A DNA stretch of 21,891 nucleotides from the IMG/VR virus record IMGVR_UViG_3300033571_013602, positions 1-21,891 of that record, one strand, 5' to 3'. Made by a program: the position numbers and the translations under genes. Source of the stretch: a virus. The notes beneath the pieces were generated by a model, which made no database searches, was not told the origin of the DNA, and was given only the letters and a program-made list of their open reading frames with translations. The stretch's first letter is position 1; every line of letters starts with the position of its first letter. This document shows, piece after piece, positions 2,918 to 20,426 of this stretch.

Positions 2918-3382
2918 ATGGCATTAAACCAATCAATAGAAACCTACGGATCACAACTTCCTAAGTCTCCTTCCTTTTTAAATAGAAGGAAGGCTGACAA
3001 AGACTATGGATTTGCCTTTCCATTAGGAGATATTGATTCTGGTAAATTTCTAGCTAAGTCTTCTGATTTGCAACTTGTAAAGGGCCAGTTAAAGCAGCTT
3101 CTTTTTACAAATCGTGGCGAAAGGGTTATGCTCCCTTCTTACGGGACTAACCTAAGAAGGTTCCTTATGGAGCCGATGGATCAAGCCACATTCAGCCAAA
3201 TTAAAAGGGAGATTCTAGAATCTTTTAGTAAATATGCTAGAAACGTAGCTGTAAATAAACTTCAGATATTTCCAGGCTCAACTTCAACTCCTCAAGGTGG
3301 AAACTTTATAATTATAAAGCTTTACTGCACTTTGTTGATAGAAGATAAAATTTCTTTTGATTTAACCCTAAACATACAATAA
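2918..3382 (+). CDS. 25: Baseplate wedge protein gp25 (GPW/gp25 family)
   Basis: This 154-residue protein belongs to the gp25/GpW_gp25 family, the wedge subunit that touches the inner tube/sheath end and, with the gp6-type protein, holds the baseplate together and nucleates the sheath. The family signature is clear: FPLGDIDSGKFLAKSSDLQLVKGQLKQLL is abbreviated here by its parts FPLGDID and LVKGQLKQLLFT, followed at residues 67-86 by GERVMLPSYGTNLRRFLMEP, which matches the conserved G-E-R-x-x-x-P-x-x-G-x-x-L core. It is slightly longer than T4 gp25 (132 aa) because of an N-terminal extension of about 30 residues. Its stop codon TAA shares its last A with the ATG of the gp6-like gene (TAATG), which implies translational coupling of the two wedge partners. 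This is the most secure identification in the window. Confidence 0.93.
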   Translation: MALNQSIETYGSQLPKSPSFLNRRKADKDYGFAFPLGDIDSGKFLAKSSDLQLVKGQLKQLLFTNRGERVMLPSYGTNLRRFLMEPMDQATFSQIKREILESFSKYARNVAVNKLQIFPGSTSTPQGGNFIIIKLYCTLLIEDKISFDLTLNIQ

Positions 3383-4986
3383 TGGCATTCCGTGGCACAG
3401 TAACCTCTGACTTCATGAAGCTCATATCAGCAGATGATGCTGATAAAAGAAACTACATAAATTTTGCTGCAACTGATTTCTTAAGTCTTAGAGATTCTTT
3501 GCTGCGTTATGTTCAAGCAGTCTACCCTTTAGATTACACTTATTTCTCGGAGTCAGATTTTGGCATGATGTTGATAGAACTGGTAGCTTACATGGGCCAT
3601 GTTCTATCTTACAAAGCTGATTACCTAGCTAACGAAAATTTCTTAAAGACTGCTAAGTCTAGAGAAAGTATAAAAAATTTAATGCAGCTTATTGGTGTGA
3701 GGATGAGGGGGCCAATCGCTGCCGCCGCTGACGCTAAACTATCTTTACCATTTACTTGGGCTGATTCTGCAAACAGCTTTATAACCATAGCCCCAGAAAA
3801 TAGAGTTGTAACAATAACATCCCCCGAAGATGGTCTCCCACTAACCTATACATTATATAAAGTTGCCGCAGACGGGGATATAGATACAGCAAACTCTAAT
3901 GCTAGCTTAATAATTTATAATTCAGATAAGACTGGATCAGTCACTACCTTCTCAAGCTTAGTTCTTCTTGAAGGATCTTTGGTTGTAGAGCAAGGAACAT
4001 TCTCTGATACAGAATCACTTAAGAGTGTAAGATTACAGCAGGCTCCAATAGTTGAGGGAAGCTTACAGGTTGTAATAACAGGCGAATCTGCAACTAGTGG
4101 AGAGTATGTTCAGGTAGATAACATATTTTATGCCTCAGGCCCATCTCAAAAAGTATTCCAGTTATTGTCCAATGAAGATTATGGCGGAACTATAGTATTT
4201 GGAGATAACAACATAGGAAAGACTCCTTCCATCGGAGATCAATATACAATTTTGTATAGAGTTGGTGGAGGAAGTAGAGGAAACATACGAAAAAGTGTTT
4301 TAAACGCTCCAATATCTTTAACATTTGAAGATGGAGGCTCCCCAGTCTCATACCAAGCTACTGTTCAAAATACTTCAATAGGAACTGGAGGGTCTGACGC
4401 TGAAACAGCAGAGAATGCGAAGCGGTATGGTCCTTTAATGTTCAGAACTCAAAATCGTTTGGTGACACTGAACGATTATAAAGCATTTGTTAATAGCTAT
4501 ATTAGCTCTTACGGGTCAATAGGAAAGGCTACTGCCGTTACAAGAAGAGCTTACTCTTCGGCTAATATAATTGATCTATATGTCCTTGAGAAGGCTAACA
4601 ATCTACAATTAAGAAAAGCTACACCAGAATATAAGCGTCAAATACTTCTAGCAATAGATGATAAAAAGATGCTTACCGATGAGGTGGTGGTTGTGGATGG
4701 ACTAATTAGAACTTTGGATCTTCAAATAACACTTAGACTGGACAAGAAATACCAGTTCAACGAAGGAACAATTAGACAAAAAGTTAGAAATGCCATCGAA
4801 GCATTCTTTAATATGGACAATAACGACTTTGGGAAAGTGTTTAATCCTCAAGATTTGATGTATTCAATATTCCAAGTCGAAGAGGTTAGATTCGCTACCA
4901 TAGACAATGTTCCAGAAGCTATTCAAGTAAACTTTAATGAAATAGTTCAACTAAATAATTATACACTGAATATTGTTTATGTCTAG
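3382..4986 (+). CDS. 6: Baseplate wedge protein, gp6-like / baseplate J family
   Basis: This 534-residue protein is of the gp6/baseplate-J type. In T4, gp6 dimers form the continuous inner ring of the baseplate and hold gp25 and gp7. The N-terminal part (residues about 54-110) carries SDFGMMLIELVAYMGHVLSY followed by DYLANENFLKTAKSRESI, the typical start of baseplate-J proteins. Near residues 270-305, IVFGDNNIGKTPSIGDQ and YRVGGGSRGNI are the usual FGDGxxGxxP and GxxGNI-like motifs. Around 350, RTQNRLVTLNDYKAFV matches the R-x-V-T-x-x-D-Y-x-x-L segment. It is shorter than T4 gp6 (660 aa). It starts on the A of the gp25 stop. Its last codons overlap the next gene by 8 bases (ATG at 4979, TAG at 4984-4986). 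Assignment to the family is firm; equivalence to gp6 follows from the gp25 neighbour. Confidence 0.88.
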   Translation: MAFRGTVTSDFMKLISADDADKRNYINFAATDFLSLRDSLLRYVQAVYPLDYTYFSESDFGMMLIELVAYMGHVLSYKADYLANENFLKTAKSRESIKNLMQLIGVRMRGPIAAAADAKLSLPFTWADSANSFITIAPENRVVTITSPEDGLPLTYTLYKVAADGDIDTANSNASLIIYNSDKTGSVTTFSSLVLLEGSLVVEQGTFSDTESLKSVRLQQAPIVEGSLQVVITGESATSGEYVQVDNIFYASGPSQKVFQLLSNEDYGGTIVFGDNNIGKTPSIGDQYTILYRVGGGSRGNIRKSVLNAPISLTFEDGGSPVSYQATVQNTSIGTGGSDAETAENAKRYGPLMFRTQNRLVTLNDYKAFVNSYISSYGSIGKATAVTRRAYSSANIIDLYVLEKANNLQLRKATPEYKRQILLAIDDKKMLTDEVVVVDGLIRTLDLQITLRLDKKYQFNEGTIRQKVRNAIEAFFNMDNNDFGKVFNPQDLMYSIFQVEEVRFATIDNVPEAIQVNFNEIVQLNNYTLNIVYV

Positions 4987-7900
4987 TCCAATTAAGTTTA
5001 TAGATAATCGTCAATATCACAAGTCGAATTATAGCGATGCGATGAAGTATGTCATCCCATCAATGTATTACGAAGAAGACTATGCATTAAAAAACAAAGA
5101 AATAGATGTACTAGATCAATTAATAAACTCACATCTAAACATAATTGGAAATATAAATAGTATTCTATTTATCAGCGGAGTGGCTGGCACAGTTTACAGC
5201 GGAATGAATACTCCAGAGGGTATCGCACCGTTCTTTATAAAGCAAAATAATCTTACGGATATAGACACTAACGACTTTGAAAGAAAGATACTTCTACCCT
5301 TAGACACATCATTAAAAGATTTTAATTCTAGTGCAGAGTTCAGAAATTATTTAAACAACACATTATTACCTGGAATAAGAACTAATAACCCAACTTTAAC
5401 TTTTGCTGAAAACGCTACAAAAGAACAAACACATAATTATCTAATAACTAATTTATCTTGGTTCTACTTTTTAAATAGAAGTGGATCATTGACATACAAT
5501 CCATCTTCGTATGTATTAGATACTTTAGTAAATAACATTTACCAAGGCAAGCCACTGACCACGAATGATGGAATTCGCGGGCTAACAGAGTACATCTGGC
5601 GTAATTACACAACTCAATCATGGTCTTCTATTGACGTAATACCAGATGATTTCTTGCCTATTGCAAGTAATACAAGTTCACAATTTACAAGCGGAACTCA
5701 ACAGCTTAGTAAACTTAATACTTTAGTTGATGTGCTGTACTCTCCATTATATATTGATGATGGAGATGTTAGAGTTAGGGATGCTATTGAAGATTATCTT
5801 CAAAACTCTTATTTAATAACACAAAAGTATTTACAAGGCCCATTCATAAAGTTGATAAAGGCAATGTCATTTGCCTTCGCAGATTATTCAAATCAAGTTG
5901 ATAGGCTAGAGTCACTATACGATATAGACGAATGCCCAGACGAATACTTACCACTTCTAGCTAATTTAATTGGGTGGAAGCTGTTTGGTTCTGAGCCTGA
6001 TCGCTGGAGATTGCAAATAGCTAATGCTGTAGACATTTACAGGGCCGTAGGTACAAAGAAGTGTGTTAAGCTAGTAGCTGATTCTGTGTTTGGGCAGGAC
6101 GTACTAGGAGCAAGCTCTTTGATAACAGAGATGTGGGAGTCTTACATCCCATTCCTAATTCAATACTCATTAGCTACAGAGTCTCCCCTACTTCAAAACT
6201 TTTCAACTTGGACTCAATCTGTTGCTCAGAGTTTAGGGGTTACTAATTACAGTCTCAACAGTTTTGATGAAAATATAAAGATGTGTGTAGACAAAATATT
6301 AACTGATCTTGTCACCACATTCCCAGACAACTTTATACTAGCTGGAAGTAGGTTTAGAATAAATAGACCAGATTTTGTTTTTGAATACAGAAACAAAATA
6401 AATAAAATTCCACCATTTGAGGAGATTCCTTATTACACAACTGTAAAATTAACTAAGGATATGGTTAGCTTTATAGTTGATAAACTTGTCTGCTTTGGAG
6501 TTCCTATTTCATTTGCCGACAAGGTGGGTGACTACATCTTAAAATACACTTTAGAGAACAACGAAGACTATTCACTAAGAAACAGCTTCTTGATGTTCAC
6601 TCCAAGCTCTGAGTATCCACCCAACTGGGATTCGGTAATAAAAGACTTGTCCGACACAAAGACCGAGTACCTATCTCTGTGGAACGGTAAATCATCTCAT
6701 TTCCAAATAGTTATAGATACTTCAAGCTTTAACTTTGGAAAAACATCATTAGAGGCAGATTCAGCAGAAATACTTAAGATAACATCTCAGACAATTAAAG
6801 AATTCTCTCCTGCGAAAGCCATGCCGGATATTATTGCGAGATCGTCTGCGGAAGATTTTGCAAGCTATCTTGATGCCATTCGCCCATACATCCGAGTCGC
6901 TAAACAAGACTACGCTGCAATAACCTATGCCAGCGGAGCATCAATAGCGGGATTTGCAACCTCCGCTATAGCTATGAAGACTTATAAGAGAGGGCTTACT
7001 CCTACGTCAACTGCAACCTTCTCTAGATTTAATGCAGATAGCTTATCAGACAGTCTTATTAGATTTGATGCTCTAGCCTCATCTACTTTACCAAGAAGAT
7101 CTCACCGTAGAAGAGATTTAAAGTTTATACTTCCTAAAGGTGGGTTTTATGATCGTACTGGATTTAATATGCCAGTTTCTTATGATTATAATTTTTCAAC
7201 CGCTAAAACTCCTTTAGGGCTTATCCCAAGTTCGATGACCTTCGTTCCGATTCCTGACTACAACAATATCCCAGAGATATACTCAAGATGCAATAATCTT
7301 GATTCTAGTAACTCTTATTATGGATACAGTGTAAGCAACACCGTTCCCGCGCGTGGCGGATCAGAAGTTGGACCAACTAAGAATCTAGTTATCTTAGCTG
7401 GTCAGAGCAACATGAATGGTAGAGGGCAAACACCCAGAGATTCAATTGGAGGATTAAATTGGTATAATCTAGAGACTTCTACATATGTTGATACATTAAT
7501 CCCATTTGAAAATACACAAGTTAATGCTCCACTTTATCCTGACGCAGCCCCCTTTACTTCTCCTGGCTATTCATATGATAGTTCTTACTGGGGACCAGAG
7601 ATGCGATTCGCAGAGTTATTACAGAAAGATGGATTAGTTAAAAATACTTATTTGTTTAAATTTGCACAAGATAAAACCGTAGTAGTAAACTCAAGTGATA
7701 TAAATAGTTGGTGCCCAAGTAATACGTTTACAAACTCTTTATACAAAAGATTTGAAAGAGCCTTAGATGATGCTGTTAATAAACTTGGAGGTATTTCAAA
7801 ACTTAGAAATATTACTTTAATTTGGAGTCAGGGAGAAACTGAGGCTGGAACTGGGCAAGAAGCGAACTCAAGCGCAATAGCTTTTTCGGGGGCGACAGCA

Positions 7901-9997
7901 TATTTTTTAGATACTGTTAGAAACAAATTTCCAACAACAGTTAACTTTAAAATATTAAGAGCTAAAATAAATGATCAATTTTCAGTAGGATCTGAACCAG
8001 ATAGATATTACTTCCCTAATGGAAAATATATTTCTAATATTCCTGGTTATCCTGAAACATCTCCTGGAAATTATGGTGTTTGGTCTTGGTCTTCAACGAA
8101 TGTTGTCAGACAAGGGCAAGTTAATTTAGCTTCTGCAACTTATGGAAAACTTTTAGATTTTGATGATTTAGATCAATTTAAAACTGAACCTGACTTTGAA
8201 TCTCATTCTTCCCCGACTCCAACCCCCGCTACACAATTCTTTAATGAAGGAGGATTCTATATAAGTGGATACTTTACTCCTCAAAATTATTCAATTTCTA
8301 ATATTCATTATGATGATGATGAACTAGACATTATAGGTGAAAGATTTTACTATGCTTGGCTTGAGACTTTAGCAAGGACTGACAGCTTTTTAGATCGTGG
8401 GCAGTTAGATAAGTTCGTAGCAACTCTTCACTATATTCAAGAACAGGCAAAGGTAGTTCAAGCGTCTGCCTACTACGCAGATAATCTAACTGAGTATGCT
8501 CAAGATGCTTGGTGGAAAAACAACCTTCAAAGCTATGCTAACAGTGCAACAATCTATAGCGGAGCTTTCCCAAACTCATTTGATAATTATATAAACTTTA
8601 AGTTCGGTAGAGACTTCCATAAACTATACGAAGATTACATTCACAACTTTAATCGACACAGAATTGGTGGAGGGATATTAAATCTAAATGGCCCAACTAT
8701 ATTTGGGCACACTTTTGGATCTATACTTTACAATTCAGACTTACTTTTAAAGGGAAATTTCGCCAGCCAGTATCCTCAATACATTACGTCTAGTTTAGAT
8801 AATGTATATGAGTTCTATGCGACAAGACCTCTGTTCTCGATATCTGGAAATCCATCGGGAACTTTTGTTGCTTCAACAATAGAAGATGCGACAATATATC
8901 GCTCAGACAACCCAACTATTCAAAAAGAATTTAGAAATTCTGGAATAATAAGCTATATGGAATTCTGTCACCCATCAGGTTGCAGTCCATACAATAGCTT
9001 TGCTGTAATAGATATAGATGATTCTGAGAAAGTTGGGTACAAGTACAAGCCATTAATACACGAGAATGTATTAATAAAACAAAAATCAAGAAACTCAACA
9101 AGTAGAATGATTTTTGATATAGGCAAGTATGCTCACGATTCTAATAATGGATTTGATGTAAGCACCAACTTCTTAACTCCCGACCATGAGTTTAAACTTA
9201 GCTTAAAATCTTTAATATCAACTTTAAATGGAGAAGTATTTGGTGGGGGAGCTATTAACTTCTGGATACATACAAAGCCAGAGAGAAATAAGATATGGAC
9301 CTTTATGAAGAATGGAGAGTGGGAACAGCACGATGCTAGTTCTGTAACAAACTCCACTCTCGTACAGACCTACTGCCATCAGCTTTCTATGCCAGAACTT
9401 ACTAGAGACTTAAATAGTAGTTCTATAAGATGTAACAACTTTAGATTAATTACAAATCAAAATAAAGAAAATGACACTATTGCATCTTTAGACAAGTCAG
9501 ATTTTAATCAATTAGAATTAACTTTTAACACTAGAAATAGATATCTTAGTGTTCCCGCAGACTATTTTGAAAATATATCAAATCATGTTCACAGACTAAA
9601 CCAAAGATATGTCATTGAAATATTCAGCGACGTTAAAGATGAAAACAGATTTACACTGTTTTATGATTTAAATTTAATAGATTTAACTCTAAATAAGTGG
9701 TCTAAACCTTTTATAACTGGAACCCCAAATGGTTCAACCATGGGTGAAATTTATTGCAAAGAATACAGAGTAGATGTAAATAGAAATCATTTACAATCTA
9801 TAATAAGATATTTTAATGAGATTGCAGGAGCCTATACAAGTGAGTTTGGATATGCAAATAGGTCTGCCTCTTACACAAGCGGAGTTTACGAAGTGAGCGG
9901 TGGAAGCAGAATAAATTATGTGGAATCTCCGTTCTGGAATACATACTCTGTAACTGGAACCACAGGCGGATTAACTAACTTAACTTACAAGAACTAA
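4979..9997 (+). CDS. Giant baseplate wedge protein: gp7/P2-gpI-like domain with inserted SASA-type carbohydrate esterase
   Basis: I place the start at ATG 4979, giving 1672 residues; a TTG six bases upstream is less likely. Residues about 285-370 (LYDIDECPDEYLPLLANLIG, then RLQIANAVDIYRAVGTKK) match the tail protein I / gpI family, whose contractile-tail members fill the gp7 wedge position. The gene order after gp25 and gp6 supports this. Residues 802-812 read NLVILAGQSNM, the nucleophile block of sialate O-acetylesterase-type (SASA) esterases, with Ser810. WSQGE lies at 949-953, and the C-terminal His1110 is in NIHYDD followed by IGERFYYAW. After the esterase, residues from 1139 (DRGQLDKFVATLHYIQEQAK) return to a helical structural region, and about 1400-1530 is beta-rich (INFWIHTKPE, LELTFNTR). 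The product is therefore a wedge scaffold with a built-in glycan deacetylase. The gpI-like identification is strong and the esterase fold is strong, but esterase activity is inferred. Confidence 0.85.
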   Translation: MSSPIKFIDNRQYHKSNYSDAMKYVIPSMYYEEDYALKNKEIDVLDQLINSHLNIIGNINSILFISGVAGTVYSGMNTPEGIAPFFIKQNNLTDIDTNDFERKILLPLDTSLKDFNSSAEFRNYLNNTLLPGIRTNNPTLTFAENATKEQTHNYLITNLSWFYFLNRSGSLTYNPSSYVLDTLVNNIYQGKPLTTNDGIRGLTEYIWRNYTTQSWSSIDVIPDDFLPIASNTSSQFTSGTQQLSKLNTLVDVLYSPLYIDDGDVRVRDAIEDYLQNSYLITQKYLQGPFIKLIKAMSFAFADYSNQVDRLESLYDIDECPDEYLPLLANLIGWKLFGSEPDRWRLQIANAVDIYRAVGTKKCVKLVADSVFGQDVLGASSLITEMWESYIPFLIQYSLATESPLLQNFSTWTQSVAQSLGVTNYSLNSFDENIKMCVDKILTDLVTTFPDNFILAGSRFRINRPDFVFEYRNKINKIPPFEEIPYYTTVKLTKDMVSFIVDKLVCFGVPISFADKVGDYILKYTLENNEDYSLRNSFLMFTPSSEYPPNWDSVIKDLSDTKTEYLSLWNGKSSHFQIVIDTSSFNFGKTSLEADSAEILKITSQTIKEFSPAKAMPDIIARSSAEDFASYLDAIRPYIRVAKQDYAAITYASGASIAGFATSAIAMKTYKRGLTPTSTATFSRFNADSLSDSLIRFDALASSTLPRRSHRRRDLKFILPKGGFYDRTGFNMPVSYDYNFSTAKTPLGLIPSSMTFVPIPDYNNIPEIYSRCNNLDSSNSYYGYSVSNTVPARGGSEVGPTKNLVILAGQSNMNGRGQTPRDSIGGLNWYNLETSTYVDTLIPFENTQVNAPLYPDAAPFTSPGYSYDSSYWGPEMRFAELLQKDGLVKNTYLFKFAQDKTVVVNSSDINSWCPSNTFTNSLYKRFERALDDAVNKLGGISKLRNITLIWSQGETEAGTGQEANSSAIAFSGATAYFLDTVRNKFPTTVNFKILRAKINDQFSVGSEPDRYYFPNGKYISNIPGYPETSPGNYGVWSWSSTNVVRQGQVNLASATYGKLLDFDDLDQFKTEPDFESHSSPTPTPATQFFNEGGFYISGYFTPQNYSISNIHYDDDELDIIGERFYYAWLETLARTDSFLDRGQLDKFVATLHYIQEQAKVVQASAYYADNLTEYAQDAWWKNNLQSYANSATIYSGAFPNSFDNYINFKFGRDFHKLYEDYIHNFNRHRIGGGILNLNGPTIFGHTFGSILYNSDLLLKGNFASQYPQYITSSLDNVYEFYATRPLFSISGNPSGTFVASTIEDATIYRSDNPTIQKEFRNSGIISYMEFCHPSGCSPYNSFAVIDIDDSEKVGYKYKPLIHENVLIKQKSRNSTSRMIFDIGKYAHDSNNGFDVSTNFLTPDHEFKLSLKSLISTLNGEVFGGGAINFWIHTKPERNKIWTFMKNGEWEQHDASSVTNSTLVQTYCHQLSMPELTRDLNSSSIRCNNFRLITNQNKENDTIASLDKSDFNQLELTFNTRNRYLSVPADYFENISNHVHRLNQRYVIEIFSDVKDENRFTLFYDLNLIDLTLNKWSKPFITGTPNGSTMGEIYCKEYRVDVNRNHLQSIIRYFNEIAGAYTSEFGYANRSASYTSGVYEVSGGSRINYVESPFWNTYSVTGTTGGLTNLTYKN
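7352..8395 (+). other. In-frame SASA/SGNH esterase cassette inside the wedge gene
   Basis: This 1044-base segment (348 codons) encodes residues 792-1139 of the wedge protein and contains all esterase blocks: GQSN (Ser810), WSQGE (949-953) and the C-terminal His1110. Identical CGTGG pentamers, both coding Arg-Gly in the same frame, lie at 7352-7356 and 8396-8400. Joining them would give an uninterrupted SNTVPARGQLDKFVATL. Parts are much poorer in G+C (12 of 60 at 7921-7980) than the flanks (26 of 60 at 6001-6060, 23 of 60 at 8401-8460). SASA-family enzymes remove O-acetyl groups from sugars. I infer that the domain was inserted into an older wedge protein. A five-base repeat can be chance, so the exact boundaries are uncertain. 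Confidence 0.6.
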
Positions 9998-9998
9998 A

Positions 9999-10982
9999 AT
10001 GCTAGTAGATGGAGCAGGAAAATTAATTGTCGATGTGCTTACAGCAGAGCGAAGCCTGCAATCCATTCCGTCTGCGTCAGCTATTCTTGATGCTTCTAAC
10101 TACACTATTCAGGCTGTTTCCTTTGGGAAGGATGCTGCCGGATTTAGATTTCATGCTCATGAGATACTGGCTCCTTCAGCCCCAGACGCTAATCCATATA
10201 ATAGAGTTCTAAAAGTTGTTTCATACCAACCTAAGTCAGTATCTAGTTACCATACCTCGGCAACGGAGATAGCGTTAGAGCACATCTACAAGATCTTGCC
10301 AGAGTCTCCAACTCCATTAAATACTAGATTGGAGTCCAAATCTACTCTGCCTAACTACTCGTCTGGCGTAGTAGATATAGGCCACTGCCTTAATCCTGCT
10401 GTCTCTCAAGACTTAAGTTCTTATGCCCATTTAATTGGTTGCTTTGCACCCTCAGGGTATGGGTTTAAGTATTGGGTGGTATCGTCAGCCATAAGCCCAT
10501 CCACAAGCGTCCTGTACTCGGGAACTTTATATAGCGATTTTAATTTTTACAAATTAATGGACGCTTCAGGATTTTTAACTTTTGCAAGTGGTAATTCAAC
10601 TTATCACGCTACTTTAGCCTCAGACCCAACTAAGGGGGCTATTAGATATATTCAAACTGGTAGCTTCCCTAATAAAGTAACTTATAGATTTTATATTGGG
10701 CAAGGGGACGCGGGATCTTTAAGTTTATTTGGAGGGCTGTACCATATCGGATTGTGGTACATAGATTTAAAAACATTATTAAGTGAAGGTAAAACCCCAC
10801 CTTATTCATTTAACTATCTAAATAATATAAGAAAATATAAACTTCTTGCTAAAAAGACTTTTAATAAGAACTTATTAACCGTAAATGATGTTGGGGTATC
10901 TTCAGGGTTTAACTTGTCTCATAATTTTCCGTATGCGACACCTACTGGACTTACTTTAAATTGGGAATTGTACTTCGTATGA
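9999..10982 (+). CDS. Putative virion structural protein (baseplate/fibre-associated), unknown fold
   Basis: This 327-residue protein has no enzyme motif that I can recognise. It starts 1 base after the preceding stop and its TGA overlaps the next ATG (ATGA at 10979-10982), so it is co-translated with the wedge and adhesin genes. The N-terminal half mixes short strands and loops with little Lys/Glu. The C-terminal half is Gly/Tyr/Ser-rich with aromatic strands (FKYWVVSSAI, VTYRFYIGQGD, LYHIGLWYIDLKTLL). It ends in a more conserved-looking segment, YSFNYLNNIRKYKLLAKKTF, and then a beta strand LTLNWELYFV. The central part (about 10530-10920) is AT-rich compared with the first 500 bases, as in the neighbouring fibre genes. 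I infer a beta-sandwich-type component of the tail periphery. It could be an adaptor for the fibres that follow. Confidence 0.6.
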   Translation: MLVDGAGKLIVDVLTAERSLQSIPSASAILDASNYTIQAVSFGKDAAGFRFHAHEILAPSAPDANPYNRVLKVVSYQPKSVSSYHTSATEIALEHIYKILPESPTPLNTRLESKSTLPNYSSGVVDIGHCLNPAVSQDLSSYAHLIGCFAPSGYGFKYWVVSSAISPSTSVLYSGTLYSDFNFYKLMDASGFLTFASGNSTYHATLASDPTKGAIRYIQTGSFPNKVTYRFYIGQGDAGSLSLFGGLYHIGLWYIDLKTLLSEGKTPPYSFNYLNNIRKYKLLAKKTFNKNLLTVNDVGVSSGFNLSHNFPYATPTGLTLNWELYFV

Positions 10983-11596
10983 TAAAGAATATAATTGATG
11001 AGCTTGATATTAAAGGACATTTGAAGATATCAAAACTATTTTCAAACGGGTCTGAAGAGGTTATTTTTGATGACCACAACGTAATTGTTTCCGGTATGGG
11101 TGTGGCTCTAGCTCACTTATTCGCTCTTTCTGGGTCAGACTCTGTACTAGACTATCAAGTAGATAGATTCCAAGTTGGAGTATCTGGTGGTGCGGCTAAC
11201 GAGGTTTATCAAACCAATAGCCTGTCTGCCCCACTGTCGAGCCTGTCAGAGTATATTGGAACTGCGGGAGCGGGAGACATCCTTACAGCGTCTGCACATC
11301 AGCTAATTAATAACTCTGTTGTAACCACGCCAAGATGGTATGGCCTAATCCCCCAGCACCAGATTACAAGAATAGATGAGAATACTGTTAGATTTACAAT
11401 ATTCTTGGATCAAGAGTCTTGCAATAATCTAAGCAGAGGATCTTCTATAGCCTACTTAAATGAGATAGGTCTATTTATAAAGAATATAAAGAAATCAAGT
11501 CCTGCGGCCCCAGTTCTCGCGGCGTACAGGTCATTTGATAATGTTAGAAAAACTGACGATTTCGCACTTGTTTTTAGATGGAGTTTAACTTTCTAA
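10979..11596 (+). CDS. Putative tail-fibre adaptor / baseplate structural protein
   Basis: I choose ATG 10979 (MIKNIIDELDIKGH..., 205 aa). An in-frame GTG/ATG further upstream would sit inside the previous gene, while 10979 forms the ATGA overlap with the upstream TGA. Residues about 27-55 (VIFDDHNVIVSGMGVALAHL) resemble the 'D-x-N-x-I-x-x-G' segment of phage proteins that start with a structural anchor. The C-terminal part, with AYLNEIGLFIKN, then LAAYRSF and FRWSLTF, matches the 'I-N-E-I-G-L-F ... A-Y-R-x-F ... F-x-W-x-I-x-F' pattern of tail-fibre and baseplate-fibre proteins. No catalytic motif is visible. Its place between a wedge protein and two giant beta-rich proteins suggests an adaptor or short fibre. 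It stops 1 base before the next ATG. The identification is by pattern only. Confidence 0.6.
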   Translation: MIKNIIDELDIKGHLKISKLFSNGSEEVIFDDHNVIVSGMGVALAHLFALSGSDSVLDYQVDRFQVGVSGGAANEVYQTNSLSAPLSSLSEYIGTAGAGDILTASAHQLINNSVVTTPRWYGLIPQHQITRIDENTVRFTIFLDQESCNNLSRGSSIAYLNEIGLFIKNIKKSSPAAPVLAAYRSFDNVRKTDDFALVFRWSLTF

Positions 11597-11597
11597 A

Positions 11598-14500
11598 ATG
11601 TTTATTAAAGAAGATATTTATACAACCAGTAGCACTGTAAAGCTTTTCCACTGCTGGACCGACAAGGTTACAAAGTTTGATTCAAGTGCATTCTACAATT
11701 GGGAACAGGACAATATGCCTGTTTACGATCTTGAGGAGAGAACTTTTTATCTGTGGGAGAAGCTTGGATACCCAACATCAAGCATTCCTGGAGTAGTCCT
11801 TGCGGTCTCAGCCGATGCTCCAGACAGTGCCATAAGCTGCAACAAGAATATCTTCCGAAGCCTCAGTGCTGCAATCGACGCTCTCCCAGAGACTATTAAT
11901 TTCCCAATCATTATCGAGGTTGGAAACTTTGGTGCCTTGGGTGATCTAGTTTTAAATAACTTTAGATTTGGACCTAGAGGCTCATTAGAAATAATTAACA
12001 GATGCTCATCTAAAAGTATTGGAACATTTTCTGGAGTTGGATTCGTCAACGGAGAGCAAGAACTTAATTATGCTTCAAGCTATTCAAATAACAAATATTC
12101 TTACTACTCTGCATTAGCGACTCCAGCTCCTTTTGGAGAAGTAGGGTTCGGACCTCAAACTTCATTAATTCAAACTTCTTGTGTTAGCTTAAGCACACTC
12201 ATACTAAGCGCACAATCAGATACAAGATTAACAAATAATTTTAATGCATTTATTTCTCAACCTCTAGTTTCAGTTGGACAAAATTCAAAATATACTCGCT
12301 CAACTTTATCAATTGCTAGCAAGAACACTTCTTTAATTCAAGGAACTTCAACTGAAGGATATAAATTTACAGCTTATGATGTTAACTCAGAATCGCAAGA
12401 TGGTGTTGGAGTTTATGACTTAAGCACTATAGACTTAATAAGAGACAACTCTACCGAACTATATTTAAATGATCATACAGCTAATGGAACTCACGGAGTT
12501 AATGTTTTAATTTTTGGTAACAGATTAGATAAAATAATAGTTAATAACTGTGAAGGACCTATTTATTTAAGAAATTTCTTTGTAGATGGGAGTGGATATA
12601 ACAGATCAACAAATTATTATGGAGTGGAAGTCGCAGACTCTAATAATATTTATTTAGAAAATATTGTATCAGTAAGACATAGAAAAGCAGGATTTATATT
12701 CAATGATTCTAATGTTACACTTTTAAGAGGGTGTGTTGCTCATAGAATATATGATTTTGATTCAACCGGTAAGAGATTAACCGGACCTTGGAATTCTAAG
12801 AGATTATTTAATTCCTACAACTCTACTGTAGGATATTCAAATTATGATAAAGCTGCTGGACTTTTAGCTAACAACAGTACTATAACTCTTAGTTCTACAA
12901 GAGAATTTGAACAGCCTTTGTTAAGAAATAAAATTATTACCTTAGCATCCCCAGCTTTCACAGATGTAGACCCTTATGTTCACCTAAGCTATATTTTTGA
13001 TTTTAGCAAAAATTCAAATGGTATAGTGCTTAATAATTCAGTATTCCAAGGGGGTAGCACTTACAAAGCAAGCTCAACTGATCACTATAGACATACTATA
13101 AACATCAATGTTCAAGGTAACGTAGAGTGTGGAGTTAAGCTTACAAACTCTAAACTATCTTTTGACGGTAGATTGAGTGTGTTTGAAAACCTAAATGGAA
13201 TTAAATTAGACTCATCTGTATTTGAGATAGATAAGCTTTCTTTAATGTACAATCAGAAAGCTGCTATAGAAGCGGATAACTCTAAAATTATATATGGAAA
13301 GAATTTATCTCCATATCTGAATGGAGGAGCTAACGCCGAGACAAATACCCCCATTTACTTTAGTGGTAACGGGCAGCATTTAGTTCTTTCAAACTCAAAA
13401 ATAAATCCTGTTATTACTTCTGCAACTGACTCCATCTATGAGCAAATAATATTTGAGAATACTATTGGGGCTAAGAATCAACAAACGGGTTCAAATGCCA
13501 CACCAATACCAGCAATAGAAATAAAAAATAACTCTGAAGCTGTGCTAATAGGTTCTAAATTAACTAGAAATCAAGCCCATGCAGAATCAGGAGCTTCTTG
13601 CAAAGGATCTGAGTTATCAGTAGTTAATAATTCTTTTGCTAATTTGATAGGAACTAGATATGCTGCAACTCGTATAATAGGCCCCTCAGGTAGAGCTTAT
13701 CAAAAGAATATGGCTGGTTGCTATGCGGGTAAAAACTCAACAATAGAATTTAATGGCCCTACAGTTATAGCTAACTATGGAATAGATTTATTAGCAGAAG
13801 ATAATTCTACAATAAATTTAAACCCTTACAGATTAAAAGGTGAGGAGATCTTAGACTTAAGCTCTTTTGATCTTTCTTTAAAAGAAAATCATACTGCTGT
13901 AGAACTTCATTCAACAAGATCTTGCGTTGTAGTTGATAACAATTCTATCTTCAATGCAAGAGATTTAGGATCGTTTAAAACATCTTGGGCTGTTACTGGA
14001 AACTATTTTTCTAATAGATCTTCTAGCGGTATAGATTATGGAGCATATGCAAATTTTGATTTGTATTTAAGTGCAGGAGGATTGCAATTCTATCCAAATC
14101 CAATAGCTCCGGTTTCGTATAATTCTATAACTTTCCCAGGCGCGGACGATCCAACTATTCCAAGCAACAAAGCTTTCTCTATAGCTGCAAATAACAGATA
14201 TCTCTATTATTTAGTAGACTCTAATATTGGTACAAACAATTTTAGCTCAGTAACCAACGGTGGATACTGTGTAAGAGCTTTAAACAATAGCTTAGTTAAC
14301 ATTAATAATGTTAACTTTCCTGCTGGGTGGTGGAACTGCTCAGCCGCTTATTATGATAACACAGTTTTGCCTGCTAACGGGGGACTCTGCTACAAGACAT
14401 TTATTTGGAATATAGCGGATACATCACAATTAAAATCTTCCTATACCTCTGTACAAGGTCTTTATCCAAGGGCAGCAGGCTATGTGGGGCCTTCGGGAGT

Positions 14501-15071
14501 GTGGGGGACTAGCACGGGGGCAATAGCGTCAGGGCTTCCTGCGGGGACTCCGGATACAAGTTCAGCTTCTATTCTTGATTACTTTGGAGCAGCACCAGTA
14601 TCCGCTAATCCATTTGGAACAACCTCTGTGGCAAACTACGGACCATTTAGATTATACTTCTCGGTAAATCCGGTTGCTAACGCTTTTACAGATTTAAGTT
14701 CAACAACTTATGAGATAATACCGCAAATATACTCTCAAGGATACCAACCATCCTCTTCGTTAATTTGTAGCGGATACGATCTTAGCTCTATCTACAAAAT
14801 AGCTTTACAAAGAAATTCATCTAATAGTATCGTCCCATCTGGGTATTATTATGGATCCAGTATAGTAGATAACGGAGGGTTTGTTAGAGTATTCTTAGAT
14901 GAGTCTTCTTCAGATTTGTTTGCCAATGCTAAACACTGTTCTACAGGAAGATCTGGAAATGCCAAGTTGGTTTCAATCTACTATCCATACAGTGCTGTTC
15001 AATTCGGAAGTTCCTACAATACTAAGGGACTAAAATCACCAAACTTATTCGATTTACATAGAGATAACTAA
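11598..15071 (+). CDS. Right-handed beta-helix tail adhesin/fibre protein
   Basis: This 1157-residue protein is probably a trimeric or monomeric pectin-lyase-like fibre. Residues 1-140 form a compact N-terminal domain (WEQDNMPVYDLEERTFYLWE at 35-54, then FRSLSAAIDALPE and FPIIIEVGNFG) that likely docks on the baseplate and starts the helix. From about residue 300 to 800 there are many short strands separated by Asn-Ser turns: NNSTITL, NNSVFQG, TNSKLSF, DNSKIIY, SNSKINP, NNSEAVL, NNSFANL, KNSTIEF, DNSTINL, NNSIFNA. This is the asparagine-ladder style of parallel beta-helices. The C-terminal 300 residues look like a separate beta domain. No depolymerase active-site motif could be recognised. 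Base composition drops from 32 of 60 G+C (11761-11820) to about 17-20 of 60 (12181-12240, 12541-12600), consistent with a conserved anchor and an exchangeable body. The TAA stop overlaps the next ATG by one base. Confidence 0.8.
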   Translation: MFIKEDIYTTSSTVKLFHCWTDKVTKFDSSAFYNWEQDNMPVYDLEERTFYLWEKLGYPTSSIPGVVLAVSADAPDSAISCNKNIFRSLSAAIDALPETINFPIIIEVGNFGALGDLVLNNFRFGPRGSLEIINRCSSKSIGTFSGVGFVNGEQELNYASSYSNNKYSYYSALATPAPFGEVGFGPQTSLIQTSCVSLSTLILSAQSDTRLTNNFNAFISQPLVSVGQNSKYTRSTLSIASKNTSLIQGTSTEGYKFTAYDVNSESQDGVGVYDLSTIDLIRDNSTELYLNDHTANGTHGVNVLIFGNRLDKIIVNNCEGPIYLRNFFVDGSGYNRSTNYYGVEVADSNNIYLENIVSVRHRKAGFIFNDSNVTLLRGCVAHRIYDFDSTGKRLTGPWNSKRLFNSYNSTVGYSNYDKAAGLLANNSTITLSSTREFEQPLLRNKIITLASPAFTDVDPYVHLSYIFDFSKNSNGIVLNNSVFQGGSTYKASSTDHYRHTININVQGNVECGVKLTNSKLSFDGRLSVFENLNGIKLDSSVFEIDKLSLMYNQKAAIEADNSKIIYGKNLSPYLNGGANAETNTPIYFSGNGQHLVLSNSKINPVITSATDSIYEQIIFENTIGAKNQQTGSNATPIPAIEIKNNSEAVLIGSKLTRNQAHAESGASCKGSELSVVNNSFANLIGTRYAATRIIGPSGRAYQKNMAGCYAGKNSTIEFNGPTVIANYGIDLLAEDNSTINLNPYRLKGEEILDLSSFDLSLKENHTAVELHSTRSCVVVDNNSIFNARDLGSFKTSWAVTGNYFSNRSSSGIDYGAYANFDLYLSAGGLQFYPNPIAPVSYNSITFPGADDPTIPSNKAFSIAANNRYLYYLVDSNIGTNNFSSVTNGGYCVRALNNSLVNINNVNFPAGWWNCSAAYYDNTVLPANGGLCYKTFIWNIADTSQLKSSYTSVQGLYPRAAGYVGPSGVWGTSTGAIASGLPAGTPDTSSASILDYFGAAPVSANPFGTTSVANYGPFRLYFSVNPVANAFTDLSSTTYEIIPQIYSQGYQPSSSLICSGYDLSSIYKIALQRNSSNSIVPSGYYYGSSIVDNGGFVRVFLDESSSDLFANAKHCSTGRSGNAKLVSIYYPYSAVQFGSSYNTKGLKSPNLFDLHRDN

Positions 15072-17650
15072 TGGTACTATTTTCTCAAAGTTCTTATAGA
15101 TTCACTGATCCAATCAGATACTTCAAAGCTAACGATCCAATCTACTATGAAGTTGATAACATACCTCTTAAACAACTTCAGCAAAATGATCTTTGGCTTA
15201 AAGAGCAATTAGAAAATTTAGAACTTCCTAGACAGCAAGAGATAGGCAGATCTACATTTACAGAACTTCAACCTTACATTGACGGATCAGATAACGTAGT
15301 ATACGTTAGACCAGGGAGATATAGTGCAAGAATAAACGACGTATTTAATCTTCAATCAATGCAATTACTTAATGTAATTCCAACCTATGAAGATATTGTC
15401 ACTGCAAAGACAAATAATCACGCTTATATTCAACAAGTAATTGATAAAGTTAGAGGAGTTGTAGCAACAGACTCTTTGGCACTAAACGGGTTAGTTGAAA
15501 GAACTTTTACCAAAGCTTCAGCATGGCATCACACAGTATCAAAGTTGATGCTGTCTAGCACTGTCGGGTACAATGAAGCTAGACTTGAACAATTAGACTT
15601 TGGTGGGAAATGGCCCTACCCAATGTACAAAGGAATGCTGTACACTCGAAATGGGGTATTCAGCCCTTCGTATGATGCGTCAACTGTAGGCGGTTTAAAG
15701 TTTGATTTTTTTCCTGGGCAATCAGCTTCTGGTAATGATCTAGGGTACGCTAGACTTGCGGTATTAGAGAGCGAGTTTATGAAGAAGTGGAGAGGGGTTG
15801 CTAGAACTTCTATAGTAGACATCCCTGAACAACTCTCTATAGAAATACCCCCGTTCGACCCAGATGATTACTTTTACTACGACTCTAATGGGGTAAGAAC
15901 TTTAATTTCAGAAGCTAATCAGAGAATAGATTTACTATTTATCTATTCAAAACCAATAGATACTTCTGCTGCAACTATTGCAAAATTTGTAAACGGTGGA
16001 AATACTCCTACAAAAATTTATACCCCTCAGCTAGGTATTGTAAAGGGAGCAGGGTTGGGGCTAAATAAAAAATCTACCACTGATTCAACACTAAGTCCAC
16101 GAGATTACGGATACACAACTCCATTGCAAGATGATGATGGAAATAATTTAATGTTGGCGTCTCATGCTGACGCATTAAATCAAAATCTTGGATTTAGCGG
16201 CGTAAAAGGATCTTTTCCATCCCCCGATGATTTATTAAATTTTGCTCCAACTTTGGCAGACATAATTGAAAGCAATCATATGGCTTTGCTAGGCCAGTCA
16301 ATACTTCCCCTAGCTTATATTGTTGTTAAAAAAGAAGCTTCTCTAAATGAAAACGACATACCCAGACTTACCTCTAATGACTTGATTGATATAAGACCTT
16401 TCTTTAGAACAACAGAACTTACATACAATGAAAGAGCGGGTATAGCGGCTGCTCACCCACAAATATCATTAGCTAACCCAGTTGCGACTCAATCTTATGT
16501 TGATTTTCCGGTCAAAGATCTTTATGAAAAAATTGCAGACGTAGATTCTAGAATACCAGTATTACCTGGACTTTCTCCTAGAGTTATTTCGACTGGATAT
16601 ATTTACGGTGGTCTTTTTTATGGAGTTGAATCTGTTCTTTTACATTACTTAAGCAAGAAATATACAAATTTAAACTCTTCACAATTAATAGAAAAAGTAA
16701 GAGAACACTTTAATTATCCTGATAGTTTTTCTCAAGGAGACCCAGGGTGGGATTTAGCCTCGTGGAGAGTAACTCAAATAGAAGGAAACAGCCTCGACAA
16801 GTATGATTGGTTAAATATTGTTCAAAATAGCACATACCCTTCTAACGGAGGATATTACGGTGGTGAGTACAGTTGGCTGGAAGGATTTTTAAAATTTTCT
16901 CCAAATGTTTTAAATTCTTATGATGCCTCTTTTAAAAATGCAATAAAAGAAATTCAAAGATCATTCCATAATGCTCCCGCTATGGCATTTGGAAGATCAA
17001 TTCAAACAGAGTCATTTTTGTCCAATCAATCATCATTTCCTGGAACTGGAGTAAGGGGGTTAGGATCTACAGATGGAACATCTTCTGATGACTACACTTT
17101 CTGTTATGTTAGAAAGAAGATTGTTATTCAACCTCAACAAACTGGATGGGCTTCAGATTATATGTTAAAAGCATCATATCACAATTGCACTACTGTAGGC
17201 GGTGGAATTGGCCCAAATAATATTATTGTTACAAAAGAGAAAAATTTAGCCACTGGAAATATTGAATTTACAGTTATAGCTGGATGGCCCGTTAAACTTA
17301 AAGAAATTAACAGAAACTCGTTCGGCGGGTTTAGTTACTATCAAGCTTTCCCAGATAACAAATATACTTTTCCTTTGTTCCATAGAAAACAATCTCCGGG
17401 GTATGATGGTCCTGGTCCCTTATTTAGAAATTGGAATGGTACACTTGTTATAACGGATGAGATGTCCTCGGACATAAATACTGCTGGACATATCGGTGCA
17501 GTAAGGGTAGATAGTACAGCAAGCGAATACGGTATATCAAATTACGGAGTCGCACTGTACCCAACTGTAAAATTTGAAATTATCGGAATTCCAAATCAAT
17601 ATTTAACAACTAATTTATTTTATAATTCTAATACAGTAATTACTCAATAA
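15071..17650 (+). CDS. Large virion structural protein with conserved N-terminal docking-type segment
   Basis: This 859-residue protein starts on the last A of the upstream TAA (TAATG). Residues 11-50 (FTDPIRYFKANDPIYYEVDN followed by IPLKQLQQNDLWLKEQLENL) form a distinctive start that I associate with structural proteins of T4-like marine phages. Residues 26-47 align without gaps to residues 35-56 of the beta-helix protein upstream. The middle contains charged helical stretches (DLYEKIADVDSRIPVLPG near 490) and the C-terminal third is rich in Gly/Tyr/Asn with beta strands (FTVIAGWPVKLKEIN, VALYPTVKFEIIGIP). There is no enzymatic signature. Position in the adhesin block and shared docking motif suggest a baseplate-attached fibre or peripheral wedge component. 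The specific T4 counterpart, if any, is not apparent to me. It ends 3 bases before the next gene. Confidence 0.7.
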   Translation: MVLFSQSSYRFTDPIRYFKANDPIYYEVDNIPLKQLQQNDLWLKEQLENLELPRQQEIGRSTFTELQPYIDGSDNVVYVRPGRYSARINDVFNLQSMQLLNVIPTYEDIVTAKTNNHAYIQQVIDKVRGVVATDSLALNGLVERTFTKASAWHHTVSKLMLSSTVGYNEARLEQLDFGGKWPYPMYKGMLYTRNGVFSPSYDASTVGGLKFDFFPGQSASGNDLGYARLAVLESEFMKKWRGVARTSIVDIPEQLSIEIPPFDPDDYFYYDSNGVRTLISEANQRIDLLFIYSKPIDTSAATIAKFVNGGNTPTKIYTPQLGIVKGAGLGLNKKSTTDSTLSPRDYGYTTPLQDDDGNNLMLASHADALNQNLGFSGVKGSFPSPDDLLNFAPTLADIIESNHMALLGQSILPLAYIVVKKEASLNENDIPRLTSNDLIDIRPFFRTTELTYNERAGIAAAHPQISLANPVATQSYVDFPVKDLYEKIADVDSRIPVLPGLSPRVISTGYIYGGLFYGVESVLLHYLSKKYTNLNSSQLIEKVREHFNYPDSFSQGDPGWDLASWRVTQIEGNSLDKYDWLNIVQNSTYPSNGGYYGGEYSWLEGFLKFSPNVLNSYDASFKNAIKEIQRSFHNAPAMAFGRSIQTESFLSNQSSFPGTGVRGLGSTDGTSSDDYTFCYVRKKIVIQPQQTGWASDYMLKASYHNCTTVGGGIGPNNIIVTKEKNLATGNIEFTVIAGWPVKLKEINRNSFGGFSYYQAFPDNKYTFPLFHRKQSPGYDGPGPLFRNWNGTLVITDEMSSDINTAGHIGAVRVDSTASEYGISNYGVALYPTVKFEIIGIPNQYLTTNLFYNSNTVITQ

Positions 17651-17653
17651 ACC

Positions 17654-20110
17654 ATGACATCTACTGGACTTCCTGTAACTACTTATCCATGTGGAAATCC
17701 TGTTCCAGGATATGAAGCTAGAAATCCAGTACAGGATGCCCCTAATACAAACTATATTCCAAACGGTAATGAGGTAACACACGTTTTAACCGTGCCTGTG
17801 TGTGTCACAGGTACTTTTCCACCTGATGCCGGGGAGGGTGGACCAATATTAAATCCACCACCTCCACCTCCAAATTTTCCCCCAACTCCACCGCCACCCC
17901 CTCCAAGACCAAGAAGACCAAGGGTCACTAGAAGAAGAACTCCCCCACAATATGTTCCACCAGAGGCAAGAAGAAGAGGTGTGGGTCAGGGACCACAAAT
18001 ATCCGGTAATGCATTTGTTACACGAGCAGAATACAGATACAATCTTAATTCAGGAAGAGGTCAGAGATTTGGTATTCAAGGACAGCCAAACCCATCTCAA
18101 TTTTTATTTCCAAGTAATAACCCTCAAACTGTAAACGCATCCCTAGAATATAATTTAACACAAACTTCTAATGAGGGCAGTGAAAGCTTTCCAATAAATC
18201 CTGCCGGATCTCAAGTAACTCAAAAATTACCTAATCCATTACAAGAAGAGTGTATTCCAACATACAATCAAACTTATAACTTTTTTAAAGTTCCTTCAAC
18301 CCCAGTAACAGATTTAGTTGCAAATCAATCTAGATTAGATATTTTTTCTAATCAAGTAGCAGAAGAAGTTAAATATTTTTTAGATATGCAAAATTCTACT
18401 GCTGCATGGAATGAAAAATATATATCTAATTTAAGCATTGAAAAAATTTCTATTAGCATAAACTCTTCTCTGTATGAAAGCTTAAATAACATTCATGGGG
18501 AAGGTAGTTTAAAAATTGATTTTTCTGTTTTTTTAAACACACTAAAATCTCATTTATTACAAGGGACATTAAATGAATTTGATCCTTCATTTTTTATTAG
18601 TGTGGCTCAAAAACAACAAAACGATAACTTCTATTCTTTATCTAGAACGCAAGAATCTCAAGCTACAATAAATACTTCATTAGCAATATTTGAAGGCACT
18701 TCTGTAAATCCAGATTACGAAAGATTAAATTTAGATAAAAATGAAAGAAATGATTTTAGAAGAATGAGATTTCTCCCAGAAGATTTGCAATGTAAAATAG
18801 ATGTTCTTCAAATAGACGGAACCTCAGAACCCCTTTTAGTTACAAATAATGGGATACCTACTCAACAGTTACCAGCACTGATAGATGATCCTTCTGTAAG
18901 TTCCATAGAGACTCAATTCGGTGATGGGGCTGGATATTATTTTTCTTCGCTTTCAATAAATGGAGAGGAGTATCCTCTTCCAACTTACAACGAGTTGTCC
19001 AATTCTTACTATTTAAATACAAGAGATCGAGCGTTAATTCTTGGGTTATTAGGCGCGGATTCTTCCCTTAGGCTAACTTCAACTTCGCCTTTAAATAATC
19101 ACGAATTTACTTCGACTTATAACTCATCCGCTGATGTTGATCTAATGTATTTTATTCTTGATATGTCTTCTGTCGGGGATATTATCGGGACAAAATTAAT
19201 GGTGACTACAACTTCTGCAAATTACATAAGAACAACAAGTGAAGAAGCAATAGCTCATTCAAAAAATAATTGTCTTAATTTATCTAAAATAAATGTTGAT
19301 TATAGGGACCCGTTTATCCACTACGCAAGGGACTCTAGTTCCGTATATTGTGAAATAGAAGACTTTAGTGTAAAAGCTTTAAATATAGAAACAACTCCAA
19401 ACTCAGATAAATTAATATTAAGAAGTCTACCTCAAGGAATTATTCTATTACCAGGATGCGGATCAAAGCACAATCCATTTAATGGTAAATCTAAGTTTCA
19501 AGACTATTCAAATTCTGCTGTTAGAAGAACTTTAAGCTTAAAGCCAACTATAGATCAAACAGATTTACAAATTCAAACTACTCCATTAGCTCAAGAAAAA
19601 GTTGTGTTACAGCTTGGGACTGACAGTTTTGGTCTTTATGAAAAATACTTAGATGAAGATTTAGAAGGATTAATTTATTCGTTCAATGCTAGCTCTGAAG
19701 AATTTTTAAATTCTTATTATTCATACCCAAGCGGGTTTAACTCCACGCAGCCTCCCTCTGAATTTAGAGTTAATTCCCCAGAATCAAATTTATTAAATTT
19801 AACTGATAAGCTTGCAACTGTTGCTCTTGATTTAAAAAATACTTCTGGTACTCAATACGGATTTTTAAGTTGGTATGATATTTACAGAAGAATGACTCTG
19901 AATGATATTGGAAAATTAATGTATACTAATTCTCAAGATTTAATATCAAAGATAGAACAGGGTTTTGTTCAAGGAGTATTTGTTAACAATACTTTAAATG
20001 ACGTAAATACTACTATTTATTATGGAATTCCCGAATCAGCAACAGTGCCGAATGACTCTATAATAATAACAGAAGCAGATAGAATAAACTTTAAAAATTC
20101 ATTAAAATAA
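17654..20110 (+). CDS. Large virion structural protein with polyproline/arginine linker
   Basis: This 818-residue protein has an N-terminal segment of about 55 residues rich in Pro/Gly/Asn. Residues about 56-108 are low-complexity, with Pro runs of six at 68-73 and 79-84 followed by an Arg-rich stretch (RPRRPR, RRR, RRR). A short Gln/Asn/Phe-rich stretch follows, and then a long, AT-rich coding, mixed alpha/beta region. The segment RMRFLPEDLQCKIDVLQ around 375-390 and the C-terminus (TTIYYGIPESATVPNDSI, then RINFKNSLK) look like folded structural protein. The polyproline II linker could act as a stiff spacer between an anchoring N-terminus and a distal domain. I see no catalytic motif. It lies just upstream of the PAAR tip gene (1-base gap) and in the late operon, so a virion role is likely. 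The actual location is unknown. Confidence 0.65.
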   Translation: MTSTGLPVTTYPCGNPVPGYEARNPVQDAPNTNYIPNGNEVTHVLTVPVCVTGTFPPDAGEGGPILNPPPPPPNFPPTPPPPPPRPRRPRVTRRRTPPQYVPPEARRRGVGQGPQISGNAFVTRAEYRYNLNSGRGQRFGIQGQPNPSQFLFPSNNPQTVNASLEYNLTQTSNEGSESFPINPAGSQVTQKLPNPLQEECIPTYNQTYNFFKVPSTPVTDLVANQSRLDIFSNQVAEEVKYFLDMQNSTAAWNEKYISNLSIEKISISINSSLYESLNNIHGEGSLKIDFSVFLNTLKSHLLQGTLNEFDPSFFISVAQKQQNDNFYSLSRTQESQATINTSLAIFEGTSVNPDYERLNLDKNERNDFRRMRFLPEDLQCKIDVLQIDGTSEPLLVTNNGIPTQQLPALIDDPSVSSIETQFGDGAGYYFSSLSINGEEYPLPTYNELSNSYYLNTRDRALILGLLGADSSLRLTSTSPLNNHEFTSTYNSSADVDLMYFILDMSSVGDIIGTKLMVTTTSANYIRTTSEEAIAHSKNNCLNLSKINVDYRDPFIHYARDSSSVYCEIEDFSVKALNIETTPNSDKLILRSLPQGIILLPGCGSKHNPFNGKSKFQDYSNSAVRRTLSLKPTIDQTDLQIQTTPLAQEKVVLQLGTDSFGLYEKYLDEDLEGLIYSFNASSEEFLNSYYSYPSGFNSTQPPSEFRVNSPESNLLNLTDKLATVALDLKNTSGTQYGFLSWYDIYRRMTLNDIGKLMYTNSQDLISKIEQGFVQGVFVNNTLNDVNTTIYYGIPESATVPNDSIIITEADRINFKNSLK

Positions 20111-20111
20111 T

Positions 20112-20426
20112 ATGCCAATAGCAGCAACAGTAATAGATCCTAGTACGGGGCATTGTCATCCGCCAACCGCACATCTACTAGGTGCGGCAGGACCGGGAGG
20201 AACAGCTTTAGTTTTTATTGGGCCTGCTTTAGCCCCCCCGGTTTTACTTGGAGACGCTTATATCTCAACTAGCTGTGGAGATACAGCCCATGTACCAATT
20301 GTAACTTTAGGTAGCCTTAATGTTCTAGTTGGCCCTTCTTTAATAGGAATGTCTTTTATTGGGGCACCACTTTCTTGTGGGGATATTGTTGGGGCCAATC
20401 CAGCAAATAATGTGACTGTTAACTAA
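20112..20426 (+). CDS. PAAR-like baseplate spike tip protein
   Basis: This 104-residue protein is built of Gly-rich beta hairpins in the PAAR pattern: ...STGHCHPPT..., VFIGPALAPPVLLGDAY, HVPIVTLGSLNVLVG, SFIGAPLSCGDIVG and NNVTVN. PAAR proteins cap the trimeric gp5/VgrG spike and sharpen the membrane-piercing tip by binding a metal through His/Cys residues. Candidates here are His14/His16/His21, Cys55, His60 and Cys89. The length fits (T4 gp5.4 is 97 aa). A run of seven C at about 20236-20242 encodes the Ala-Pro-Pro turn. It is the last gene of the tail operon, about 20 kb from the hub-like gene at the window start with which it would assemble. A stop and an 82-base AT-rich gap follow. The fold call is strong; the exact ligands are inferred. 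Confidence 0.82.
   Translation: MPIAATVIDPSTGHCHPPTAHLLGAAGPGGTALVFIGPALAPPVLLGDAYISTSCGDTAHVPIVTLGSLNVLVGPSLIGMSFIGAPLSCGDIVGANPANNVTVN

Follow-up and report, generated by a model that had tools for sequence, protein, structure and literature searches.

A short homologous N-terminal element on different phage fibre-type proteins, best read as a modular virion-attachment element

Introduction

That one kind of N-terminal anchor can fix various bodies to a phage tail is already known, the examples being T4 gp9/gp10, CBA120 and RaK2 as these are described in the excerpts cited here. In T4, the N-terminal domain of gp9 binds gp7 and the homologous N-terminal domain of gp10 carries gp12, the two N-termini being 23% identical over 200 residues (excerpts of PMC3004832). 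In the tailspikes TSP1-4 of CBA120 and in the branched fibres of RaK2 and K64-1, several beta-helix tailspikes are joined through conserved N-terminal domains, and these N-terminal parts are described as folded domains such as the gp10-like XD (excerpts of PMC10253068). The long and short fibres of Anabaena phage A-1(L), gp34 and gp33, have N-terminal domains anchored at the baseplate wedge; compared by description rather than by sequence, these domains are unlike each other and sit at different places (excerpts of PMC10966104).

Here we analyse a 21,891-base IMG/VR virus record, which was read whole and is called the window below. Its gene order is gp25-like, gp6/Baseplate_J-like, 1674 aa, 327 aa, 211 aa, FamA, FamB, 818 aa and PAAR-like, with the following features:

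2918-3382: gp25-like gene
3382-4986: gp6/Baseplate_J-like gene
4973-9997, + strand: 1674-aa Tail_P2_I-like baseplate protein with a SASA esterase domain (Pfam; upstream position conserved)
10961-11596, + strand: 211-aa protein (phrog_5417), directly 5' of FamA
11598-15071, + strand: FamA, 1157 aa; shared element, then a predicted right-handed parallel beta-helix body (ORF, AlphaFold2, Foldseek, VIA-align)
15071-17650, + strand: FamB, 859 aa; shared element, conserved middle and variable C-terminal part (ORF, conservation profile, AlphaFold2)

The SASA-type carbohydrate esterase domain occupies residues 803-985 of the 1674-aa protein, whose counterpart is divided between two ORFs in several relatives. 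Elsewhere in the window, an 894-aa protein (231-2915) has a weak Laminin_G_3 (lectin-like) match close to its C-terminus, an 818-aa protein without a family match (17654-20110) is rich in proline and arginine over a long initial stretch, and a small PAAR-like protein (20112-20426; phrog_281, E 9e-5) is placed 3' of the fibre-type genes.

FamA and FamB resemble T4 gp9/gp10 in being encoded by adjacent genes 3' of the baseplate wedge genes, with a one-base overlap (in the window, between the FamB start codon and the FamA stop), and in having a common N-terminal element, which in the T4 pair is evident from BLASTP (3.4e-10). The T4 likeness spans about 200 residues, whereas that of FamA and FamB spans about 40, and an hmmsearch with the FamA and FamB profiles against T4 gp6-gp12 gave no in-register N-terminal match, the best E being 0.14 and located elsewhere. 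By analogy, T4 gp9/gp10 may be regarded as the nearest working counterpart, without sequence similarity to the pair studied here. Because the homologous N-termini of gp9 and gp10 have different partners in the T4 description cited above, one site for FamA and FamB is not to be assumed. The modelled body of FamA resembles CBA120 TSP2 (VIA-align Z 18.1) and the K64-1 depolymerase S2-4 (Foldseek E 3.1e-5); unlike the tailspikes of CBA120, RaK2 and K64-1, however, FamA is predicted to pass from a short arm and a helix straight into its body. A look for XD domains at the N-termini gave no Pfam match. When the N-terminal pieces were compared with PHROGs and Pfam, hits being admitted to E 10, none was better than 0.1, and PDB sequences to the same limit contained no match. 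The words of the motif of this element occurred in no relevant paper of the literature outside subscription journals, the only two matches being unrelated, and further literature listings contained analogues only. Since the principle is known and the element has no counterpart in Pfam, PHROGs, the PDB, T4 or this literature, we regard it as a new form of a known anchoring principle.

Results

The shared element in the window pair

The original prediction singled out a 22-residue stretch near the N-terminus of each protein that aligns without gaps and has eight identical residues (E, D, N, P, L, L, E and L), and it named a shared motif, E-x-D-N-[IM]-P; the alignment proved exact and the motif is present in both proteins where it had been placed. 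The shared stretch is in fact longer, as profile alignment extends it to FamA residues 20-57 and FamB residues 11-48.

11700-11765, + strand: 22-residue stretch first noted in FamA, residues 35-56
15146-15211, + strand: 22-residue stretch first noted in FamB, residues 26-47
11655-11768, + strand: shared element in FamA (arm and helix; profile alignment, 37-38 gapless columns)
15101-15214, + strand: shared element in FamB (profile alignment, 37-38 gapless columns)

By itself, the window pair carries little weight, as shuffled sequences also attain eight identities in 22 residues: 24 of 2000 shuffled pairs did so within the first 80 residues of both proteins and, at full length, such a stretch was contained in 20 of 20. 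The best ungapped BLOSUM62 score of the first 80 residues, 53, was attained by 1 of 2000 shuffled pairs. Beyond the N-terminus, sequence comparisons of FamA with FamB returned no match, in agreement with the earlier impression that the two proteins otherwise look unrelated.

Family-level evidence for homology

Viral contigs were scanned with the N-terminal alignments, yielding 323 FamA-type and 231 FamB-type stretches confirmed by tblastn, of which 80 of each were kept. The motif thus recurs in other phages, across hundreds of viral contigs; because several scans, each contributing at most 80 loci, returned the same contigs, the locus counts given below do not equal numbers of independent genomes. 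Comparison by hhalign of 57 FamA with 69 FamB N-termini (71 aligned, less two isolate rows) gave 38 gapless columns with a score of 36.2, which none of 300 column shuffles reached (best 23.8), and broader sets of both families gave 37 columns with P 1.5e-7 and a score of 43.1 (0 of 200 shuffles, best 20.3). The FamA HMM matches FamB proteins from E 1.8e-4, the best unrelated ORF among 3205 distinct ORFs standing at 0.3, and the HMM matches between the two families are reciprocal and in register. Within the first 90 residues, E.DN.P is found in 142 of 147 FamA and 130 of 153 FamB proteins and the exact form E.DN[IM]P in 28 of 147 and 107 of 153, and neither pattern occurs in any of the 1310 other ORFs that are 100 aa or longer; only this last count is independent, because the profiles that collected the families contain the motif.

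FamA proteins carry the N-terminal signature FYNWEQDN[LM]P..DLEERT..LWE and FamB proteins DPIRYFKANDPYYYEVDNIPLKQL.EN..WLKDQ; the core of the element is D-N-x-P, the leading E being variable in FamB. An intermediate FamA in locus L231 (IRKYTASSFYNWEQDNIPIDDLESRT) bridges the two signatures and is 40% identical to a FamB-type element over 35 columns. The most conserved columns include the arm residues Y, D, N and P besides the helix, in which leucine or isoleucine recurs at a spacing of seven residues. Among the 62 offsets listed, the aligned one gives the highest correlation (0.47) between the hydrophobicity profiles of FamA and FamB; the conservation profiles correlate at 0.35 there and at 0.43 at the next offset, so that this test does not single out the register. 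Together, these sequence comparisons indicate that the likeness of the FamA and FamB N-termini is real, a question settled by the family profiles rather than by the window pair, and that the two families have in common, at their N-termini, a homologous element some 38-45 residues long and of shared descent.

The D-N-x-P core is degenerate in the FamA copies of loci L222 and L242 and in the second FamA of L277 (10012-13923), which lies beside an intact copy and has kept D-N and lost P. Several matches were set aside. That of Shigella phage Moo19 to the FamB profile (E 0.001, found by tblastn) falls within an exonuclease, at residues 187-235, and was judged to be due to chance, its locus (L032) being excluded from later counts; a weak match to a tail fibre of Thermus phage Lalka8 (tblastn E 8, HMM 0.12) lacks D-N-x-P and was excluded, and Streptococcus and Xanthomonas matches at E 1-6 were likewise left out of the counts.

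Predicted structures

The AlphaFold2 model of FamA has a mean pLDDT of 81 and a pTM of 0.85, with residues 17-52 below pLDDT 50 and a helix at 45-55; the beta-helix body sets in near residue 61. In the FamB model (mean pLDDT 69), residues 13-31 are below 50 and a helix at 31-49 begins immediately after V-D-N. The two segments are thus not placed in different folds: the same succession of arm and helix appears in both models, at low confidence in each, and FamA and FamB may share a layout in which a floppy arm is followed by a helix near D-N-x-P. An arm and helix predicted at low confidence would be in keeping with folding upon a partner as well as with folding within a trimer, without telling which.

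VIA-align placed the FamA body closest to 8egr_B of Staphylococcus phage Andhra (Z 20.9, rmsd 3.5, 468 aligned), and seven of its nine Foldseek matches at E<=0.001 are phage tailspikes or capsule depolymerases/lyases; on these models it is a right-handed parallel beta-helix of tailspike type. By contrast, Foldseek found no PDB fold matching the FamB model at E<=0.001, and its best VIA-align hit (Z 3.4) lies in the C-terminal part. The description of both proteins as adhesin-like therefore suits FamA and is unproven for FamB.

Gene neighbourhood and copy number

One FamA and one FamB gene stand as neighbours in 163 of 190 loci, with FamA only in 21 and FamB only in 6; in 128 of those 163, the final base of the FamA stop is also part of the FamB start. 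The 211-aa family lies immediately 5' of FamA in 107 of 107 cases and the order wedge, Tail_P2_I-like, 327, 211, FamA, FamB is largely conserved. Proteins of 1230 and 954 aa that stand beside a normal copy upstream of FamA (loci L021 and L195) also match the 211-aa family, which may itself be a shared module. When 20 longer records were scanned in six frames with a profile of FamB type, 31 matches at E<=0.05 were obtained, 21 of them in FamB-type genes and the other 10 in long frames of 1089-1413 aa at FamA-like places, which were called FamA-type from frame length and place, two being checked by sequence. Tandem growth is seen in L277 (211 aa, FamA, FamA, FamB) and in L278 (FamA, FamB, FamB).

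A gp23-family major capsid protein in 18 of the 20 records marks the window's phage group as T4-like. The photosystem genes psbA and psbD, a cyanophage marker, were found in 0 of 20 related records. The only match in a cellular genome, L195 (QCKN01000003.1), belongs to this phage group; this 130.6-kb contig comes from a single-cell assembly of Prochlorococcus and provides a lead to the host. Whole FamB, searched against phage records, found no isolate relative.

Different bodies behind one element

FamA could be aligned over its whole length in 52 non-redundant members, and one body type only was seen. FamB is conserved over its first ~480 residues and variable after them. In the FamB-type proteins of L226 (359 aa) and L252 (497 aa), BLASTP found 66% identity over residues 1-41 and no match thereafter. 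We profiled five FamB classes (long, mid, short, tandem pair, Arash/D69), whose whole-protein profiles match one another in pairs at P 7.8e-6 to 3e-52; in all pairs except long-mid, the alignment is confined to the N-terminal 33-66 columns (P 7.8e-6 to 1.9e-19). Once the element was removed, P was 0.28 or worse in nine of the 10 class pairs, long versus mid again being the exception (three of 40 long FamB members, in which the pattern missed the motif, were omitted from these body-only profiles). The alignment of L204 with L300 extends past the element to residue 88.

We also found the element outside the window's group, in gp199 of Salmonella phage Arash (annotated 'structural protein'), in a protein of Vibrio phage D69 and, in its FamB-type form, in 19 further viral loci, the largest being in records of 168-185 kb. 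Across 12 phage records (two huge phages, T4, cyanophages, Pelagibacter, Caulobacter, Streptomyces, Pseudoalteromonas, Thermus, Arash and D69), the FamB-type profile matched two, D69 and Arash, and the FamA-type profile none; later HMM E-values of Arash and D69 are flattered, both having been found by the same kind of search. Record G028 (168 kb) has two carriers of 399 and 1604 aa, ~91 kb apart. The longer one is a tail fibre in which collagen repeats (E 2e-60) and Fibritin_C were recognised; in G032, a carrier of 602 aa has Peptidase_S74 (E 5e-11), the endosialidase-type chaperone, at its end. The Arash/D69-type proteins (304-310 aa), the 392-399-aa proteins and the 602-aa protein have about 147-329 residues in common, so some bodies of this second group are related. 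At 2682-9399 of L305, three fibre-like genes of 675-676 aa lie 3' of the collagen fibre, and one of them has matches of lectin-like and beta-propeller type.

In G024 and G028, a sheath family was matched above the cut-off, indicating that these phages have contractile tails. The Baseplate_J, Tail_P2_I and gp25 families were detected in 0 of six second-group records, which is weak evidence against a common socket, since in the window's own group Baseplate_J likewise went undetected in three of the four records. Literature searches for 'Salmonella phage Arash' or 'AG-409-P03' returned nothing. In all, the element was found on at least six kinds of body, two of them recognised tail fibres, and FamB-type elements keep one signature across differing bodies. 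This bears out the part of the original prediction that spoke of a common element with different bodies attached, now across hundreds of viral contigs; the docking role that went with it is weighed below.

Discussion

On the best reading of these data, the element is an N-terminal module for virion attachment that has been inherited and put to repeated use, and most likely it serves as a plug that fixes different fibres to the tail. It would consist of an arm in extended form, which bears several aromatic residues and the D-N-x-P core, and of a helix after it. In a fibre trimer, the arm would be disordered until it met a peripheral baseplate protein, onto which it would then fold, and the helix would lead into the body behind it, whatever its kind. 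The element stops short of the body and can thereby be joined to new ones by recombination or handed on by tandem duplication, which would give one tail several fibres. What the data show directly is the homology of the element, its N-terminal place and its boundary, its presence on unrelated bodies that include recognised tail fibres, its tandem expansion and the arm-helix layout of both models; we infer that the proteins are trimers, that the element docks and that the socket is shared or similar. Against this reading stand the degenerate core of some FamA copies, the single body type of FamA, the related bodies within the second group and the T4 precedent of homologous N-termini with different partners. 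The first socket candidates in this phage, by gene position only, are the 211-aa neighbour and the Tail_P2_I-like protein.

The main rival to a plug is a role in starting the trimer, in which arm and helix together form a nucleating module, the helix being the beginning of a three-helix bundle; the element would then need no socket of its own, and other parts would attach the fibre. A helix after the arm in both models, the seven-residue spacing of leucine and isoleucine within it, the presence of the element on recognised tail fibres and its occurrence in two phage groups between which no common wedge family was detected would all suit such a role. However, the arm residues Y, D, N and P, and not the helix alone, are among the most conserved columns, and fibre trimers are often equipped with nucleators of their own, such as the fibritin-like C-terminus matched in L305, which we take to be one; we consider this role a good deal less probable than attachment. 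Copies of one module may, alternatively, have come to sit on different partners, one protein for example holding the other, as the T4 gp9/gp10 precedent would allow (excerpts of PMC3004832). The frequent adjacency of the FamA and FamB genes (163 of 190 loci) and their distinct signatures, FYNWEQDN.P and DP.YYEVDN.PL, are in keeping with this, but FamB-type elements retain a single signature on differing bodies, and D69 and Arash have the FamB type with no FamA detected (an empty search being weak evidence), so that separate partners appear unlikely. That a common helix cap and some aromatic residues arose by chance or convergence, without shared descent, is highly improbable: the window pair by itself lies within chance over its full length, but the profile scores were attained by 0 of 200 and 0 of 300 shuffles, E.DN.P is missing near the N-terminus of all 1310 other ORFs, and the intermediate FamA of L231 joins the two types.

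Returning to the attachment plug, a broader picture, in which one short plug serves at least six fibre bodies in two contractile-tailed phage groups through one so-far unrecognised kind of socket and makes the fibres exchangeable, is conceivable though rather doubtful. Shared N-terminal anchors have so far been a matter of a few cultured phages and of folded domains. If the attachment reading is true, a far shorter element does this linking in a large group of uncultured T4-like phages and also in the second group, which includes cultured Salmonella and Vibrio phages. Several carriers of the element are without a clear family match, and the element offers a means of recognising fibre genes even where the body has no match.
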